Positions 2,511 through 7,587 of a stretch of 7,587 nucleotides of DNA are shown here, piece by piece. Positions within the stretch are counted from its first letter, which is position 1. Every line of letters begins with the position of its first letter. A program made the translations under genes and the position numbers. Below the pieces are notes generated by a model. The model searched no databases, was not told the origin of the DNA, and worked only from the letters and a program-made list of their open reading frames with translations. The DNA is from Eubacterium sp. (GTDB lineage: Bacteria; Bacillota_A; Clostridia; Lachnospirales; Lachnospiraceae): assembly GCA_024687845.1 (NCBI GenBank), contig JAILEL010000327.1:1-7587 (forward strand), given 5' to 3'.

Positions 2511-2539
2511 TTGATTATATGCAGAGAACTGCATATAAT
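2511..2539 (+). promoter_or_regulatory. Promoter of the riboswitch operon, embedded in an 11-bp-arm palindrome
   Basis: TTGATT (2511-2516) and a perfect TATAAT (2534-2539) are separated by 17 bases. Transcription would begin near 2546, only a few bases before the riboswitch aptamer, which strongly supports the assignment. ATTATATGCAG (2514-2524) and CTGCATATAAT (2529-2539) form a perfect inverted repeat around AGAA, covering the spacer and the whole -10 box. Such a site could bind a dimeric regulator and block the promoter. A -10-like box also exists on the minus strand, but without a good -35. Confidence 0.75.
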
Positions 2540-2550
2540 ATTACTATCAT

Positions 2551-2640
2551 ATTTGGCAAAACACGCGAAAGAGTGCGACGCAAAACTAAAAGGGACTAAC
2601 AGAAATACATGGATGTGTTCTTATGTCAGCCAGTTGCAAC
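2551..2640 (+). ncRNA. Cyclic di-GMP-I (GEMM-I) riboswitch aptamer
   Basis: The conserved pieces of the class I cyclic di-GMP riboswitch appear in order: GGCAAA (2555-2560); a hairpin CAC/GTG (2562-2564 with 2573-2575) capped by C-GAAA-G (2566-2571); GACGCAAA (2577-2584); AGGGACTAA (2591-2599); and ATG-x-CAGCC-x-GTTGC (2623-2637). The second helix forms by GAC (2594-2596) with GTC (2625-2627), CT (2586-2587) with AG (2628-2629), and a distal arm 2601-2609 with 2614-2621. CTAAC opposite TTATG fits the receptor for the GAAA tetraloop. The G before C in GGCAAA is retained, which favours cyclic di-GMP over the cGAMP-binding subclass that carries A at the corresponding ligand-contact position. One deviation is seen: A2585 replaces the usual G at the base of the second helix. 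It lies between a good promoter and a terminator directly before a gene cluster. Confidence 0.88.
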
Positions 2641-2660
2641 TATCGAGATTGATATTAATG

Positions 2661-2693
2661 AACACCGTAGAGTTAGTCTGCGGTGTTTTTTTT
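2661..2693 (+). terminator. Intrinsic terminator acting as the riboswitch expression platform
   Basis: AACACCGTAG (2661-2670) pairs with CTGCGGTGTT (2678-2687) with one T-G wobble around AGTTAGT, followed by an unbroken T-tract through 2693. It lies 20 bases after the aptamer and 8 bases before the ribosome site of the first gene, so its main effect must be on that cluster. Cyclic di-GMP would control read-through. Two upstream segments inside the aptamer are complementary to this terminator (see findings), which hints at an alternative fold and possible OFF control, but direction of control is not proven. Confidence 0.85.
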
Positions 2694-2711
2694 GTTATTT
2701 AGGAGGTGTAT

Positions 2712-2948
2712 ATGAAAGGTTACTTAACCGTTAAGGAGGCAGCATTTAAATTTGGTTATTCAGAGCGGTGGATCAGTAAGTTATGTCAAGATAATAGGAT
2801 ACCTGGGGTGGAAAAAGCTGGAATAACATATTTGATACCAGAAAATGCTGAAATGCCAAAAGATAATAGAATTACTACTGGTAAGTATAGAAATTGGAAG
2901 AAACGTTATGGTAAGAATAAAATATTGGAATATGAGATGGATGCATAA
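2712..2948 (+). CDS. Small helix-turn-helix protein, first gene of the riboswitch operon
   Basis: The product is 78 residues. The start is ATG 2712 with AGGAGG (2701-2706) 5 bases upstream; a GTG at 2706 overlaps that site. Residues 4-43 form a MerR-like/HTH_17 fold: LTVKEAAFKFGYSERWISKL, then a recognition and wing part, NRIPGVEKAGITYLIPENA. The end (DNRITTGKYRNWKKRYGK) is basic. Proteins of this shape (KGYLTVKEAA at the start, GKY near the end) are common in Clostridia as small presumed DNA-binding regulators; targets are generally unknown. It is the first gene after the terminator and 57 bases before the first zinc-ribbon gene, so it is likely induced or repressed together with the cluster. 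It could bind the palindrome at 2514-2539 and give feedback on the operon; this is inference. Confidence 0.8.
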   Translation: MKGYLTVKEAAFKFGYSERWISKLCQDNRIPGVEKAGITYLIPENAEMPKDNRITTGKYRNWKKRYGKNKILEYEMDA

Positions 2949-3005
2949 CAAGATAAACAAGCTAATTTACATAAAGAAAATGAATTGAGAAAAGGAGGAA
3001 CATAT

Positions 3006-3728
3006 ATGGCATTAATTAATTGTCCTGAATGTGGCAGAAGTGTATCTGACAAAGCAATTAGCTGTCCTGAATGCGGATATCCTGTTAGAGAATATGAAAC
3101 AAATACACATAAAAAATCAGATAATGCAAAGTATTATGAGGGCAATGTGTATGATATTAGTCCAAGATGGCAGGCTTTTGTTGATAGTTTAAACAAACCC
3201 CAAAAAGAACAAAGATATGGAAATTCATTTCAAAATAGAAAAAGTAAAGGATATAGTGAAAAAAATAAAATAAGAGACAGAATAATAGTTTTTAATACAA
3301 TAATAGGTTTTTCTTGGATTGGGCTAGGGGTAATACAAATAATATATTTTATAAAGTGTTTGAAGTATGTAAATCAAGGTATAAATTTTCAGTTCTATTT
3401 GGGAGACCATTTTTTCTCTAATACTAAGGCGATTTGCATAGTAGGATTGATTTTTGGGGTATTAAATGCAGGCTCAGCTATTTATGACTTATCAAATATG
3501 AAGAATTCTAAGGATAACGTGTTGTCCCTAATTGAAAAAGCAAAAGTTGGTTTTTTTGATGTATTATTTTTCTTTTGGAATGGATATTTAGGATTAGAAT
3601 TTTTAAGATCGCAAAATTCATTAGATATTTTTTTTGGAATAATAATTGGCATTGCCGTATTATCTGATATTATCTATAGAATTTTTATTGGTTTAAATCG
3701 AGGAAAAATAAATGATTTATTCAGTTAG
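3006..3728 (+). CDS. Zinc-ribbon protein with four predicted membrane helices
   Basis: The product is 240 residues. The start is ATG 3006 with AAAGGAGG (2991-2998) 7 bases upstream; it begins MALINCPECG exactly like its downstream paralogs, which confirms this start over a TTG at 2985. A zinc ribbon is formed by Cys6, Cys9, Cys20 and Cys23. Residues 28-92 are polar and probably disordered. Hydrophobic segments at about 93-117, 141-162, 181-199 and 207-230 predict a four-helix membrane domain with no recognised catalytic motif. With no signal peptide, the zinc ribbon should be cytoplasmic. It is the first of four consecutive genes sharing this N-terminal module. Function is unknown; the design suggests a membrane protein with a cytoplasmic interaction module. 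Confidence 0.85.
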   Translation: MALINCPECGRSVSDKAISCPECGYPVREYETNTHKKSDNAKYYEGNVYDISPRWQAFVDSLNKPQKEQRYGNSFQNRKSKGYSEKNKIRDRIIVFNTIIGFSWIGLGVIQIIYFIKCLKYVNQGINFQFYLGDHFFSNTKAICIVGLIFGVLNAGSAIYDLSNMKNSKDNVLSLIEKAKVGFFDVLFFFWNGYLGLEFLRSQNSLDIFFGIIIGIAVLSDIIYRIFIGLNRGKINDLFS

Positions 3729-3803
3729 TAGACTTATGTTTGTTAGTCTTTATACTAGTACATGGAAAACTAAAGTAACGGATAAATAACTAGGGGTGAT
3801 GAT

Positions 3804-6365
3804 ATGGCACTTATAAATTGTCCAAATTGTGGAAAAAGAGTTTCAAGTATGGCACATAGTTGTCCTGGATGTGGATTTGCAGTAGATAAATATATACTTC
3901 AAATAGAGCAAAAAAAGGAAATGGATGCTGAGAGACAGGTACGACTTGAGGCAGAAAGAAAAGAAGCCGAAAGAAAGGCACAACTTGAGGCAGAGCGAAA
4001 AGAAGCTGAGAGACAGGCGCAACTCGAAGCAGAAAGAAAAGAAGCCGAGTGGTCAGCCCGACTCGAAGCAGAAAAGAAAGAAGCCGAGCGGCAAGCAAAA
4101 CTCGAAGCAGAGAGAAAAGAAGCCGAATGGTTAGCCCGGCTTGAAGCAGAAAAGAAAGAAGTAGAGAGGCAAGTACGACTTGAGGCAGAGAGAAAAGAAG
4201 CTGAGAGACAGGTGCAACTCGAAACAGAAAGAAAAGAAGCTGAGAGACAGGCGCAACTTGAAGCAGAAAGAAAAGAAGCAGAGTGGTCAGCCCGACTTGA
4301 AGCAGAAAAGAAAGAAGTAGAGAGACAGATGCGCTTAGAAGCTGAGCAAAAGGCAGCTGAATGGGTAGCGCGCATAGACCAGGAAAGAAGAGAAGCAGAA
4401 AGATTAGCACATATTGAAGCCGATAAAAAGGAACAGCAAGAGCTTATAGCTAAGGAAAGATTAGAGAAAAAGCAAATAGAAGAAAAAGCTATTCAACAAA
4501 AAGAGGAACTCGAATCAAAGATAAAAAGAGAACGTGAGGAATTTGAAGAGGAAAGAAGAAAATGGGAGAAAGAGAAAATCGAATGGACCGAAAATGAGAA
4601 TAGACGTATGCATGCAGAAAATGAAAAATGGAAAAACGATGAAGCTGATCGTATAGAGAAAGAGAAAACTGCATGGATAAATAAAGAAAAGGAACGTTTG
4701 CAAATAGAGAAGAGTAATTGGGAACAGGAAAAGAATAATGAAATTCAGACAGAAAAACTTTTGTTAGAAGAAAAAGCTAATGAAAGAGAAAGAATTATAA
4801 ATCTAGAAAAAGAAAAACTCCAAAATGAACGATTGGCAAAAGAAAAGGAAGAAGCAGACCATTTAGCAAAAATTCATGAAGAAAGAAAAAAGATTGATGA
4901 AGAACATATTGAGCATGAGAAAAAAATAAATGCCGAGTATAAAAAAATTAAAGAAGAAAGAGAAAAACTCACGAAGGAGTTTTCTGAAATAAAAACACAA
5001 AATGAATCTGGACGAGCAAAGAAGAATAATCCGTTAATAGTGATTTTGTGTGTAATTGGATTTATCATAATAGTATTGTTAGTGGTTGTTCTATTAACAC
5101 AATGTAATAGAGAACCTTCATCCCAGGATAATAATGTGGATAAAATAATTGATAATAATGAAACTGAGAATTCTGCTGTAACTCAAATTGACACGAATAC
5201 AGATAGCCCAGTTCCAACTATAACATTATCAGCCGAAGCTACTTTAACTCCAAGCGAAGAACAACAAATAACGCCTTATGAGGAGATATTGCCTAATCCA
5301 ACATCAGAGATAATATTAACACCAGAGGTGACGGTAACTTCAACACCAGAACCAACAGATATATCAACTGTTATTTCTGAAGGGGGAAACACAGATGATT
5401 ATAAGAATATGTCTGATGAGGAGATAAAAGAATATATTCCATATGCAGAATATAAATATAAAGAATTAATATTTTTTGCTTATCCTATTAAGCATAGAGA
5501 TGCTTGGAATGAAGATAAGGTTTCTCCCTATAATATGTCAGGGGATGAATTATGTATTCTGCTAGAAACAAAACTGAACGGAGCAGATTGTCCGGTGAAT
5601 ATCATTACACAGCTTAAGAGTCCATCAGGAAAATTACTAGAGAATTTCATGTGGCCAGCACCATGGAATAGTGGCAGTGGAACTATATTCTCTATAGAAA
5701 AAAGTAAGCTTGAGGAAAAAGGTATTTATAAATATATGGTAAAGGATGCAGATAATGAGGAAATCATTCTTAAAATGGAGATTTGGTGGGATCCTGAACT
5801 TGATCTGAAACAAGGAAATGATTCTACGGTTGATTCGATTTCAGTAAATTCGGATAATCTTGGGTCGGGTAAGGAAACGGAAAAACCTGCAGCTTTTACT
5901 TTGGAATTTTCTGAAGTGAGTATGATCGATCATCAAGGAACTTTGATAAATATAGATGATAAAGGTACTCCACGTGAATTTGTATGGACTATGGAGGATT
6001 ATAGTGTAGCCAAATTCAATGAACAATTACCGGATTGTGTGGGAGTAGAAGGAGTATCATTAGGAACAACTTATGCTACTGCTACAGACCAGTTTGGCTA
6101 TACTGCAACTATTAAGCTTAATATTGTTGAGGTTGAGATATATCCTGGTGATATTACGTTAAATGTGGGAGAGCAATATCAACTTTCGGCAGTTATTGAG
6201 TACCCGGATGGTAAAAAAAGAGAAACAGGATGGTTTACAGATGCTGAAATAGTAGCAAGTGTAGATGAAACAGGATTGGTAACTGCAAATGGGAAGGGAA
6301 AAGTTAATTTGGGAGTAACAGTTCCGGATGCAGGGCTTGAATGGATACAAGTTACGGTCGAATAA
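3804..6365 (+). CDS. Large zinc-ribbon / long-helix / single-span protein with Ig-like outer domains
   Basis: The product is 853 residues; ATG 3804 has AGGGGTG (3792-3798) 5 bases before it. In order: a zinc ribbon (Cys6, Cys9, Cys20, Cys23); 13 tandem 13-residue charged repeats at residues 43-211 (pattern ERQAQLEAERKEA); further Glu/Lys-rich helix to about 400; one membrane span at 410-434 (PLIVILCVIGFIIIV...) preceded by GRAKKNN, so the N-terminal part is cytoplasmic; a Thr/Pro/Ser-rich stalk to about 535; a beta-rich domain at about 536-672; and two Ig-like domains at about 697-773 and 776-853, the last matching the BIG2 style (DITLNVGEQYQLSAVIEYPD ... TANGKGKVNLGV). It would join a long rigid cytoplasmic rod to outward-facing adhesion-type domains. 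No LPXTG signal or enzyme motif is seen. An adhesin-like or structural/sensory envelope role is inference. Confidence 0.85.
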   Translation: MALINCPNCGKRVSSMAHSCPGCGFAVDKYILQIEQKKEMDAERQVRLEAERKEAERKAQLEAERKEAERQAQLEAERKEAEWSARLEAEKKEAERQAKLEAERKEAEWLARLEAEKKEVERQVRLEAERKEAERQVQLETERKEAERQAQLEAERKEAEWSARLEAEKKEVERQMRLEAEQKAAEWVARIDQERREAERLAHIEADKKEQQELIAKERLEKKQIEEKAIQQKEELESKIKREREEFEEERRKWEKEKIEWTENENRRMHAENEKWKNDEADRIEKEKTAWINKEKERLQIEKSNWEQEKNNEIQTEKLLLEEKANERERIINLEKEKLQNERLAKEKEEADHLAKIHEERKKIDEEHIEHEKKINAEYKKIKEEREKLTKEFSEIKTQNESGRAKKNNPLIVILCVIGFIIIVLLVVVLLTQCNREPSSQDNNVDKIIDNNETENSAVTQIDTNTDSPVPTITLSAEATLTPSEEQQITPYEEILPNPTSEIILTPEVTVTSTPEPTDISTVISEGGNTDDYKNMSDEEIKEYIPYAEYKYKELIFFAYPIKHRDAWNEDKVSPYNMSGDELCILLETKLNGADCPVNIITQLKSPSGKLLENFMWPAPWNSGSGTIFSIEKSKLEEKGIYKYMVKDADNEEIILKMEIWWDPELDLKQGNDSTVDSISVNSDNLGSGKETEKPAAFTLEFSEVSMIDHQGTLINIDDKGTPREFVWTMEDYSVAKFNEQLPDCVGVEGVSLGTTYATATDQFGYTATIKLNIVEVEIYPGDITLNVGEQYQLSAVIEYPDGKKRETGWFTDAEIVASVDETGLVTANGKGKVNLGVTVPDAGLEWIQVTVE
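3930..4436 (+). repeat. Thirteen 39-bp tandem repeats encoding 13-residue helical units
   Basis: Thirteen in-frame units of 39 bases encode E-R/W-x-A/V-x-L-E-A-E-R/K-K-E-A/V. Units 1-6 resemble units 7-12 in order (1 with 7, 3 with 9, 4 with 10, and so on), giving a superimposed 234-base period. Units 3-4 and 9-10 differ at only a few bases. Tryptophan takes the second position in units 4, 6, 10 and 12. Such a tract can change in number by slippage or recombination. Confidence 0.95.
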
Positions 6366-6414
6366 TTGTAATCACAAGATTACCAGCTGGGATTTAGTAA
6401 AGGAGATTTATATT

Positions 6415-7107
6415 ATGGCTCTTATAATATGCCCTGAATGTGAAAAAAAGATTTCTGATAAAGCCAATAGTTGTCCTAATTGTGGATATCCTATTCGTGA
6501 GTTATCTGAATCAAGTGGTAGTTTTGAAACGGAGCAATATAATAAAGTATCAACCTTGAGAAGAGAAATGGATACGCCTGGAAAAGATAAGGGTATATTT
6601 TTATCTAATCAAGAAACAACTCCGATTAGAAATAACAAAAGTTATACTGGTACAAATCAAATCTTTGATAGAAGGAAGTCCTATGAAGATGTAAATTCGA
6701 ATAATGTAAGACAGTCAGCTTCTTCTGATAAATTCCTAAAAATATGCGTTTTTATAGCAATTGTTTTCGTAATTGTAGTGATTGTTATTATTTGTAACAA
6801 TGGACCTGCTAAAGGAACATATATTTTTGATAGTTTTAAATTCAATGAAGAGGAAGTTATATCTGATTCATGGAGAGAACTTATGGATGATGCGGGAGTA
6901 AACGTTGGAGCTCTTGTAATCAAGGGTGGAGGAAAAGCTAGTTTGAATATATATGGACAAAAAAGTTCGGAATTAACTTATGATAAAGAATATTTTTATG
7001 CAGAAAATGGAAACGCAACGGCCTATAAAATGTCTGGTAATACTATCACTCTTACAGTTACGTTATATGGTATAACGGTGGACATGTCTTTCACAAAGGA
7101 AGATTAA
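6415..7107 (+). CDS. Zinc-ribbon single-span protein with lipocalin-like outer domain
   Basis: The product is 230 residues. The start is ATG 6415 with AAAGGAG (6399-6405) 9 bases before it, aligned with the MALI-C-P start of its paralogs; the frame is open upstream to 6328, but that part overlaps the previous gene. A zinc ribbon is formed by Cys6, Cys9, Cys20 and Cys23 (the usual Gly after the first pair is Glu10). Residues 28-105 are polar and likely disordered, 108-127 form a membrane span, and 133-228 form a beta-rich domain (KGTYIFDSFKFNEE ... GNTITLTVTLYG) resembling the small lipocalin-like domains found in many Clostridia surface or lipoproteins. Such domains are usually extracytoplasmic and of unknown ligand. 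It lies 49 bases after the preceding gene and is probably in the same transcript. Confidence 0.82.
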   Translation: MALIICPECEKKISDKANSCPNCGYPIRELSESSGSFETEQYNKVSTLRREMDTPGKDKGIFLSNQETTPIRNNKSYTGTNQIFDRRKSYEDVNSNNVRQSASSDKFLKICVFIAIVFVIVVIVIICNNGPAKGTYIFDSFKFNEEEVISDSWRELMDDAGVNVGALVIKGGGKASLNIYGQKSSELTYDKEYFYAENGNATAYKMSGNTITLTVTLYGITVDMSFTKED

Positions 7108-7170
7108 ATTGAATTTATATGGTGGGGTACTGTAGTTGTTTTAAGTAGAATTGATAAAGGAGGCAGACAT

Positions 7171-7587
7171 ATGGCATTAATTCATTGCCCAGAATGTGGT
7201 AATCAAATATCAGATAAGGCTCATAGTTGTCCTGAATGTGGATTCCCATTACTTGAATATCTAAATAATAACACACCGGATGTCTCAAATATTGAAAAAA
7301 GTATTGATGGTTATCATGAAAATCAAGAAGAAAAAAAAACAGATCTTTTGTATGAAGATTTGTCAGATTCATATTATGAAACTGTTAAAATATTTAATAA
7401 TGCAAATACACTAGACGAGTATAAAGAAGCTTTAAGAAATTTTTCAAAATTAGGAGAATATCGAGATACTGTTTATTATGTAAATGAATGTAAAAAGAAA
7501 ATCAAAAGCATAAATTATGAGGTAAAAATTGAGTTCTTTTTTGAAACTTTAAAAAACTCAAAAGATAAAAGTGAAATTGGTAATATA
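7171..7587 (+). CDS. Fourth zinc-ribbon protein (partial, runs off right edge)
   Basis: The frame is open for 139 codons from ATG 7171 to the window end, with AAAGGAGG (7156-7163) 7 bases upstream. The zinc ribbon is intact (Cys6, Cys9, Cys20, Cys23) and close to that of the first paralog. After an acidic, disordered linker (about 30-65), residues about 70-110 contain a helical unit, YYETVKIFNNA and YKEALRNFSKLGEYRDTVYYV followed by Cys, resembling the short helical repeats (gYkDs...C) found after zinc ribbons in many Clostridia proteins. No membrane span is reached before the edge, so its architecture is unknown. It shares direction and spacing (63 bases) with the upstream genes. Confidence 0.85.
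   Translation, partial: MALIHCPECGNQISDKAHSCPECGFPLLEYLNNNTPDVSNIEKSIDGYHENQEEKKTDLLYEDLSDSYYETVKIFNNANTLDEYKEALRNFSKLGEYRDTVYYVNECKKKIKSINYEVKIEFFFETLKNSKDKSEIGNI

Follow-up and report, generated by a model that had tools for sequence, protein, structure and literature searches.

The window analysed here is a stretch of 7,587 nucleotides from Eubacterium sp. (contig JAILEL010000327.1, family Lachnospiraceae), and its subject is a cyclic di-GMP (c-di-GMP) class I riboswitch followed by a small helix-turn-helix (HTH) gene and four zinc-ribbon genes. An earlier note on this DNA had read a near-consensus promoter, a class I aptamer, an intrinsic terminator and one HTH gene plus four zinc-ribbon genes in that order, and our analysis bore out each of these features (Table 1); every zinc-ribbon gene has a CxxC...CxxC start. 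The covariance-model search that the note had called for was run with all Rfam families on the whole window and gave a significant match to RF01051 (57.3 bits vs. a gathering score of 35, E = 1.7e-9, full model 1-87). We propose, with a probability of about 0.7, that the locus is a two-layer module, a self-controlled HTH operator combined with a c-di-GMP terminator switch, whose cargo in the window would be the zinc-ribbon proteins.

The five genes share one strand, 49-75 bases separate each from the next, and a ribosome-site-like sequence precedes each start. A plus-strand terminator scan of the window found none between them. We infer one transcript through all five genes. The Ig-like domain foreseen for one of the proteins was detected as Big_2 at residues 777-842 of zinc-ribbon protein 2 (E = 1.9e-12). 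A "lipocalin-like" domain, also foreseen, had no Pfam match in the window proteins. A lipocalin-like fold was considered for zinc-ribbon protein 3 and dropped, a search with its residues 135-230 having found no relative.

Table 1. Features of the riboswitch locus (positions in the window; the cut-off for PF13240, Zn_Ribbon_1, is 25 bits).
Feature	Position	Strand	Remarks
Sigma-A type promoter	2511-2539	+	TTGATT-17-TATAAT; consensus match 10/12
Perfect inverted repeat of 26 bp, proposed operator of the HTH protein	2514-2539		11-bp arms, 4-bp centre
Class I c-di-GMP riboswitch aptamer (RF01051)	2545-2641	+	Covariance model, 57.3 bits
Candidate antiterminator helix 1 strand GGACUAAC	2593-2600	+	Within the aptamer; complements and can pair with GUUAGUCU of the terminator, 2672-2679
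Candidate antiterminator helix 2 strand GUGUUC	2615-2620	+	Within the aptamer; complements and can pair with GAACAC of the terminator, 2660-2665
Intrinsic terminator	2660-2688	+	Hairpin of 12 pairs, then T run
Small HTH gene	2712-2948	+	78 amino acids; HTH_17 / excisionase-like, winged-helix model
Zinc-ribbon protein 1	3006-3728	+	240 amino acids; PF13248 and PF13240 (26.1 bits) over cut-off; hydrophobic segments by eye
Zinc-ribbon protein 2	3804-6365	+	853 amino acids; zinc ribbon (PF13240 17.4 bits, below cut-off), long charged repeat region, hydrophobic segment (by eye), Big_2
Zinc-ribbon protein 3	6415-7107	+	230 amino acids; PF13240 29.8 bits; no relatives detected for the C-terminal part
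Zinc-ribbon protein 4	7171-7587	+	Cut by the window end; PF13240 32.1 bits

Genes behind the aptamer in related genomes

We surveyed 24 genomes of one Lachnospiraceae genus and 299 genomes of the family. In the genus, 15 HTH profile matches were obtained at E 1e-12 or better. All 12 strong matches (68-159 bits) were preceded by an aptamer on their own strand, and 11 of them stood directly behind it with 66-131 bases between; at the twelfth (G001:C106) three genes separate the aptamer from the HTH gene. The three weak matches (∼51 bits, parts of frames of 625-643 amino acids) had no aptamer in the stretches examined. Uniform placement, which our chance estimates of co-location assume, predicts ∼0.002 direct neighbours in the genus. 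Across the family the aptamer was detected in 110 genomes and an HTH match at E 1e-8 in 152, and at least five further direct pairs were found outside the genus (G131, G122, G006, G299, and G040). A genome scan with an alignment of the HTH relatives returned two loci from Lachnospiraceae metagenome-assembled genomes (L002 and L003), each with RF01051 upstream; the genus surveyed is the one to which these two loci belong. Only five of 30 HTH loci taken from the family scan have an upstream aptamer (L042, L044, L048, L049, and L063); the HTH family thus extends beyond its link to the riboswitch. The HTH gene is the closest conserved companion of the aptamer, and this linkage is far stronger than that of the zinc ribbons.

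The reading put forward in the earlier note was a dedicated c-di-GMP output of zinc-ribbon envelope proteins, in which the HTH gene would be incidental. We consider it unlikely. Its attraction lies in the tandem of four zinc-ribbon genes that follows the switch and in zinc-ribbon-like starts behind aptamers at six other loci: L249, L250 (first aptamer), L251, L265 (a frame of 60 amino acids near the contig end), L270, and L185. At least three genus PF13240 genes lie downstream of aptamers vs. 0.31 expected (P = 0.004, ∼10 times the genome background), a comparison of small counts with no correction for co-directed operons. In 188.7 kb of genus sequence eight zinc-ribbon starts were on the aptamer's strand and none on the opposite one (one of the eight is internal to the SPFH protein of L249); in 968 kb from outside the genus the numbers were 11 and 7, and the 7 resemble spurious antisense frames.

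For the comparison between aptamers we used 156 listed copies, 25 added ones and the window, which gave 173 units after tandem copies had been merged (18 HTH-linked and 155 other; L253-L255, being homologous, do not count as independent). Zinc-ribbon starts occurred within 8 kb of 3/18 HTH-linked and 12/155 other aptamers (Fisher p = 0.19), and several of the latter 12 look rubredoxin-like or otherwise different. The zinc-ribbon type of the window itself, marked by MALINCPECG, gave 68 matches in 50 of the family genomes and 17 weaker matches in 12 of the genus genomes, and none of the 68 or the 17 lies behind an aptamer among those listed (coordinates compared by inspection). These two results and the far stronger HTH linkage argue against a dedicated output. 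Zinc-ribbon genes as a general riboswitch target were also tried and rejected; tests with the CxxC pattern, PF13240 and the window motif gave weak or absent signals. What holds of the claimed control of a zinc-ribbon cluster is that aptamer and terminator head a run of genes that includes it; a dedicated link found no support in the form proposed. The survey suggested for aptamers upstream of homologous clusters showed the aptamer recurring before the HTH gene, and zinc-ribbon cargo weakly.

The cargo at related loci is varied. A histidine kinase and an HD domain follow at L272, GH3 and GDSL enzymes at L073 and L248, and MotA/EAL with genes of exopolysaccharide type (by eye) at L074. L255 carries a polysaccharide deacetylase, an acyltransferase 3, a GGDEF protein and a hybrid kinase. 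At L249 (2401-8637) an SPFH protein with a double zinc ribbon is accompanied by three CxxC-headed proteins; both of those scanned carry TIR domains and one also tetratricopeptide repeats. L251 has a zinc-ribbon-like start with A2L_zn_ribbon below the cut-off. Cargo that is not envelope-like includes Uma2 (L252), a WYL regulator (L271) and RCC1 repeats (L250). The suggested link to the cell envelope is supported at several related loci, which lead to envelope-type genes (by Pfam, or by eye for exopolysaccharide), and is not clear at others such as these three. Judged by sequence, the recurring unit is the riboswitch, the HTH gene and a promoter dyad, with an apparently exchangeable cargo that is partly of envelope type and of which zinc ribbons are one kind.

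The HTH protein and a dyad in its promoter

The protein database carries a precomputed PF12728 (HTH_17) label on the window's own HTH protein and on P0002, and a PHROG search gave an excisionase match. The predicted structure (predicted local distance difference test, 74) has HK022 Xis as its closest fold in the PDB (probability 1.00, E = 0.04, template modelling score 0.52), with lambda Xis also top-ranked; both of these proteins bind DNA. The PDB structure search with this model found no match at E ≤0.001, and the HTH profile found nothing among solved structures up to E 1. A protein search with the sequence returned only two other relatives. Viral records held two distant relatives, which had no aptamer at the gathering threshold. 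An Acetoanaerobium relative (L001) adjoins type I restriction genes (by eye), and this locus had no Rfam match and no promoter of the kind sought. Immediately upstream of bcrR, plasmids of Enterococcus and Ligilactobacillus carry further relatives (L306-L308).

Promoter-like matches are common by themselves (37 in the window vs. a shuffle mean of 34.1). Just upstream of the HTH-linked aptamers, a promoter matching at least 10/12 was present at 13/18 loci vs. a shuffled mean of 0.3. In the window the promoter spacer is occupied by the 26-bp palindrome, which contradicts the statement of the earlier note that the locus leaves no gap for another regulator. When the 60-nt promoter region was shuffled base by base 5000 times, arms of 11 were reached in 7 of the shuffles. 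A general palindrome surplus was sought in HTH-linked promoters and rejected (arms of at least 7 in 1/18 vs. 1.25 in shuffles); the dyad signal is a fixed pair, C12/G21, together with 13/20, and not arm length.

Numbering starts at the first T of TTGACA, and C12 and G21 are symmetric about 16.5 (C 2522 and G 2531 in the window). The pair was present in 12/12 HTH-linked promoters vs. 8/63 promoters of aptamers without the HTH gene (p = 4.8e-9; L248, nearly identical to L073, was not included in the dyad counts), and outside the genus in 5/5 vs. 3/57 (p = 8.7e-6). It was also found in 15/16 promoters of riboswitch-free HTH relatives (25 of the 30 family loci are without aptamer, 21 were examined and 16 had a promoter at 10/12; L052, L055, and L062, with stops in frame, and L061, a long frame, were excluded) and in all 17 promoters of a test set of 20 further HTH genes fetched afterwards, although promoter strings are identical in L054/L056/L057 and in L294/L299, and the counts therefore overstate the number of independent cases. 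The pair is also shared by the three bcrR-linked plasmid relatives, one of them in a promoter of only 9/12. Positions 13 and 20 were complementary in 8 of the 12 HTH-linked promoters (four pair types, permutation p = 0.00075) and in 13/17 of the later set. The pair 14/19 was borderline (p = 0.05), and 11/22, 10/23, and 15/18 gave no complementarity signal in the 12 promoters. By these counts, the promoters of the HTH family's own genes conserve a dyad. This is most simply read as a family that binds its own core promoter, with the dyad as its putative operator. Because occupancy of a 17-bp promoter spacer is expected to block polymerase, our guess is that the HTH protein would repress and not activate.

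Alternatively, the C12/G21 dyad could mark a promoter class that is read by another regulator or by RNA polymerase itself. This is doubtful in our estimate. The observation behind it is that, inside the genus, 5/8 promoters of aptamers without the HTH gene also carry the pair. Elsewhere C12/G21 is rare (17/411 distinct promoter-like matches in L072-L210, HTH-linked ones included), and it tracks the HTH gene with or without the riboswitch and in other genera too. The five in-genus promoters are possible trans targets, and two of them, the first aptamer of L250 and L270, lead to zinc-ribbon genes. A tentative extension, which we hold to be possible and rather short of probable, is that the riboswitch and the autoregulated HTH gene form a reusable cassette, present several times per genome in some species, each copy with its own operator variant and cargo. 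The HTH protein would then act in trans on other dyad-bearing riboswitch operons, the zinc-ribbon ones included, so that c-di-GMP would drive a regulon at the DNA level.

At four HTH-linked loci (L252-L255, of which three are homologous) a sigma-28-like motif, TAAAG-N-CGATA, lies upstream of the aptamers in place of a sigma-A promoter; it was called by what we take to be the sigma-28 consensus. The motif was found at 4/18 HTH-linked aptamers (shuffled mean 0.02) vs. 0/155 others. Such promoters would suit genes that are expressed when cells are motile and c-di-GMP is low.

Terminator switching and known systems

The window aptamer is predicted to bind c-di-GMP. It has G at the selectivity position, within GGCAAA at 2555-2560; this position, which we take to be G20 of Vc2 and G11 of Cd1, was placed on the window sequence by that presumed numbering. 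The 18 HTH-linked aptamers have G in 10 cases and A in 6, with 2 unreadable. An A at this position goes with cyclic GMP-AMP (cGAMP), and some of the relatives' aptamers may answer to another dinucleotide. The position is described in an excerpt of PMC9262584 as a selectivity factor between cyclic dinucleotides and no hard filter, and cGAMP-selective GEMM-Ib switches exist (PMC6456294, in part). The class I aptamers of L073 and L248 are divergent (43 bits); AGTACAA replaces GGCAAA at their binding pocket, and their ligand is uncertain.

Terminator-like hairpins follow all 18 HTH-linked aptamers, 15 of them at a stricter score. In the window, the terminator together with the alternative pairing of its loop and arm to the aptamer makes up an expression platform. 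When the growing chain was folded at equilibrium with the ligand absent, the alternative pairs reached a probability of 0.84-0.94 at chain ends 2678-2680 (>0.8 to 2681), and the terminator took over by 2683. We compared the complementarity of an aptamer segment to its own terminator loop with that to loops exchanged from other loci, for 103 aptamers with a good terminator. Own loops were modestly stronger (mean −5.07 vs. −4.46 kcal/mol, p = 0.0007; p = 0.05 for the 15 HTH-linked and p = 0.025 for the other 88), in a test for which the segments were chosen after the window had been seen and relatedness was uncontrolled. The window's own pair ranked fifth of 103.

The pairings fit a transcriptional OFF switch. 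This direction is likely because the layout is that of Cd1 and because C. difficile has seven functional class I switches, all of them OFF (excerpts of PMC6366702 and PMC6200980); the aptamer and terminator of Cd1 can be present together, in competition with an antiterminator (PMC9262584, in part). An ON switch, in which ligand binding would favour read-through, has a class I precedent in Bc2 of B. thuringiensis (PMC6366702, in part). We regard it as improbable here, since the aptamer (2545-2641) and the terminator (2660-2688) share no strands and the strands able to block the terminator belong to the aptamer. Some class I copies of C. difficile are not functional (PMC6366702, in part), but decay to a non-functional relic is highly improbable for an aptamer that matches at 57.3 bits and whose terminator and alternative pairings are intact.

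The two-layer module would work as follows. In the first layer, the HTH protein would bind the palindromic operator in the sigma-A promoter spacer and control, most likely repress, its own promoter. In the second, at low c-di-GMP, the strands 2593-2600 and 2615-2620 would pair with the terminator loop and arm, polymerase would read through, and the HTH and zinc-ribbon proteins would be made. At high c-di-GMP the folded aptamer would retain both strands, the terminator would form and expression would stop.

Several observations, besides the Bc2 precedent and the limits of the exchange test given above, weigh against the two-layer module. The window sequence is in none of the surveyed genomes, 19 of the 31 genus aptamers over the cut-off lead to no such HTH gene, and 5/18 HTH-linked loci have no sigma-A promoter of the strength sought. 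The HTH protein scores under the cut-off for both PF12728 (25.5 bits vs. 27) and TIGR01764 (22.3 bits vs. 28.8). The dyad centre at 16.5 came first in a scan of 78 centres by a narrow lead (0.479, next 0.448, mean 0.296, standard deviation 0.074). Some loci fail the loop-exchange test, with L077 last of 15 and L249 thirteenth. The full fold prefers the terminator (−32.8) to the antiterminator (−24.7) by ∼8 kcal/mol, so read-through would depend on kinetics.

Further upstream, the window encodes, at 516-1417, a mobilisation protein resembling NikA and a short protein of 199 amino acids with a MobA/VirD2-type relaxase domain, so that mobilisation genes are present on the contig. An HTH_17 protein is encoded with them, on the minus strand at 2-166. 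A perfect inverted repeat with 18-bp arms lies just upstream of the mobilisation genes (404-447), possibly a structure like an origin of transfer or a terminator. A SymE-like small protein is encoded on the minus strand at 1980-2192 (PF08845, 38.6 bits; cut-off 29).

c-di-GMP riboswitches have been described upstream of motility, chemotaxis and adherence genes and the like (PMC6366702, in part). In open-licence full-text literature we found no paper on a c-di-GMP-I riboswitch with Lachnospiraceae, with excisionase or with zinc ribbon, and among the matches listed for excisionase family autoregulation or operator the term "excisionase family" was absent. At the present loci a c-di-GMP switch recurs before a small regulator gene whose family conserves a dyad in its promoters. 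The window offers a concrete testable circuit that links a second messenger, a terminator switch and a DNA-binding protein that probably regulates itself, and the dyad gives a predicted operator for proteins annotated merely as HTH or excisionase-like.

The HTH_17 and excisionase-type proteins resemble the window protein in its Xis-ranked predicted fold and its PHROG match, whereas the latter falls under the Pfam and NCBIfam cut-offs and its family heads operons with varied cargo and its own promoter dyad. TfoX belongs to another protein family than the window HTH protein. In Vibrio, tfoX orthologues are preceded by a Vc2-type switch, which is, like the one in the window, a class I switch ahead of a regulator gene; the two V. 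cholerae switches, unlike what is predicted for the window, work without termination (excerpts of PMC6366702). C. difficile has c-di-GMP switches over SigD, CD630_32650 and CD630_32670 (PMC6200980, in part), a similar relay to transcription regulators; there the relay reaches a sigma factor and putative response regulators, and not a small lead HTH gene that is repeated with varied cargo. Cd1 (GEMM-I, upstream of flgB in Clostridioides difficile; described in part in PMC9262584) has, like the window, an intrinsic terminator behind a class I aptamer. It differs in what follows, since the first gene in the window is an HTH regulator with a promoter dyad and the cargo is zinc-ribbon proteins, whereas that of Cd1 is flagella.

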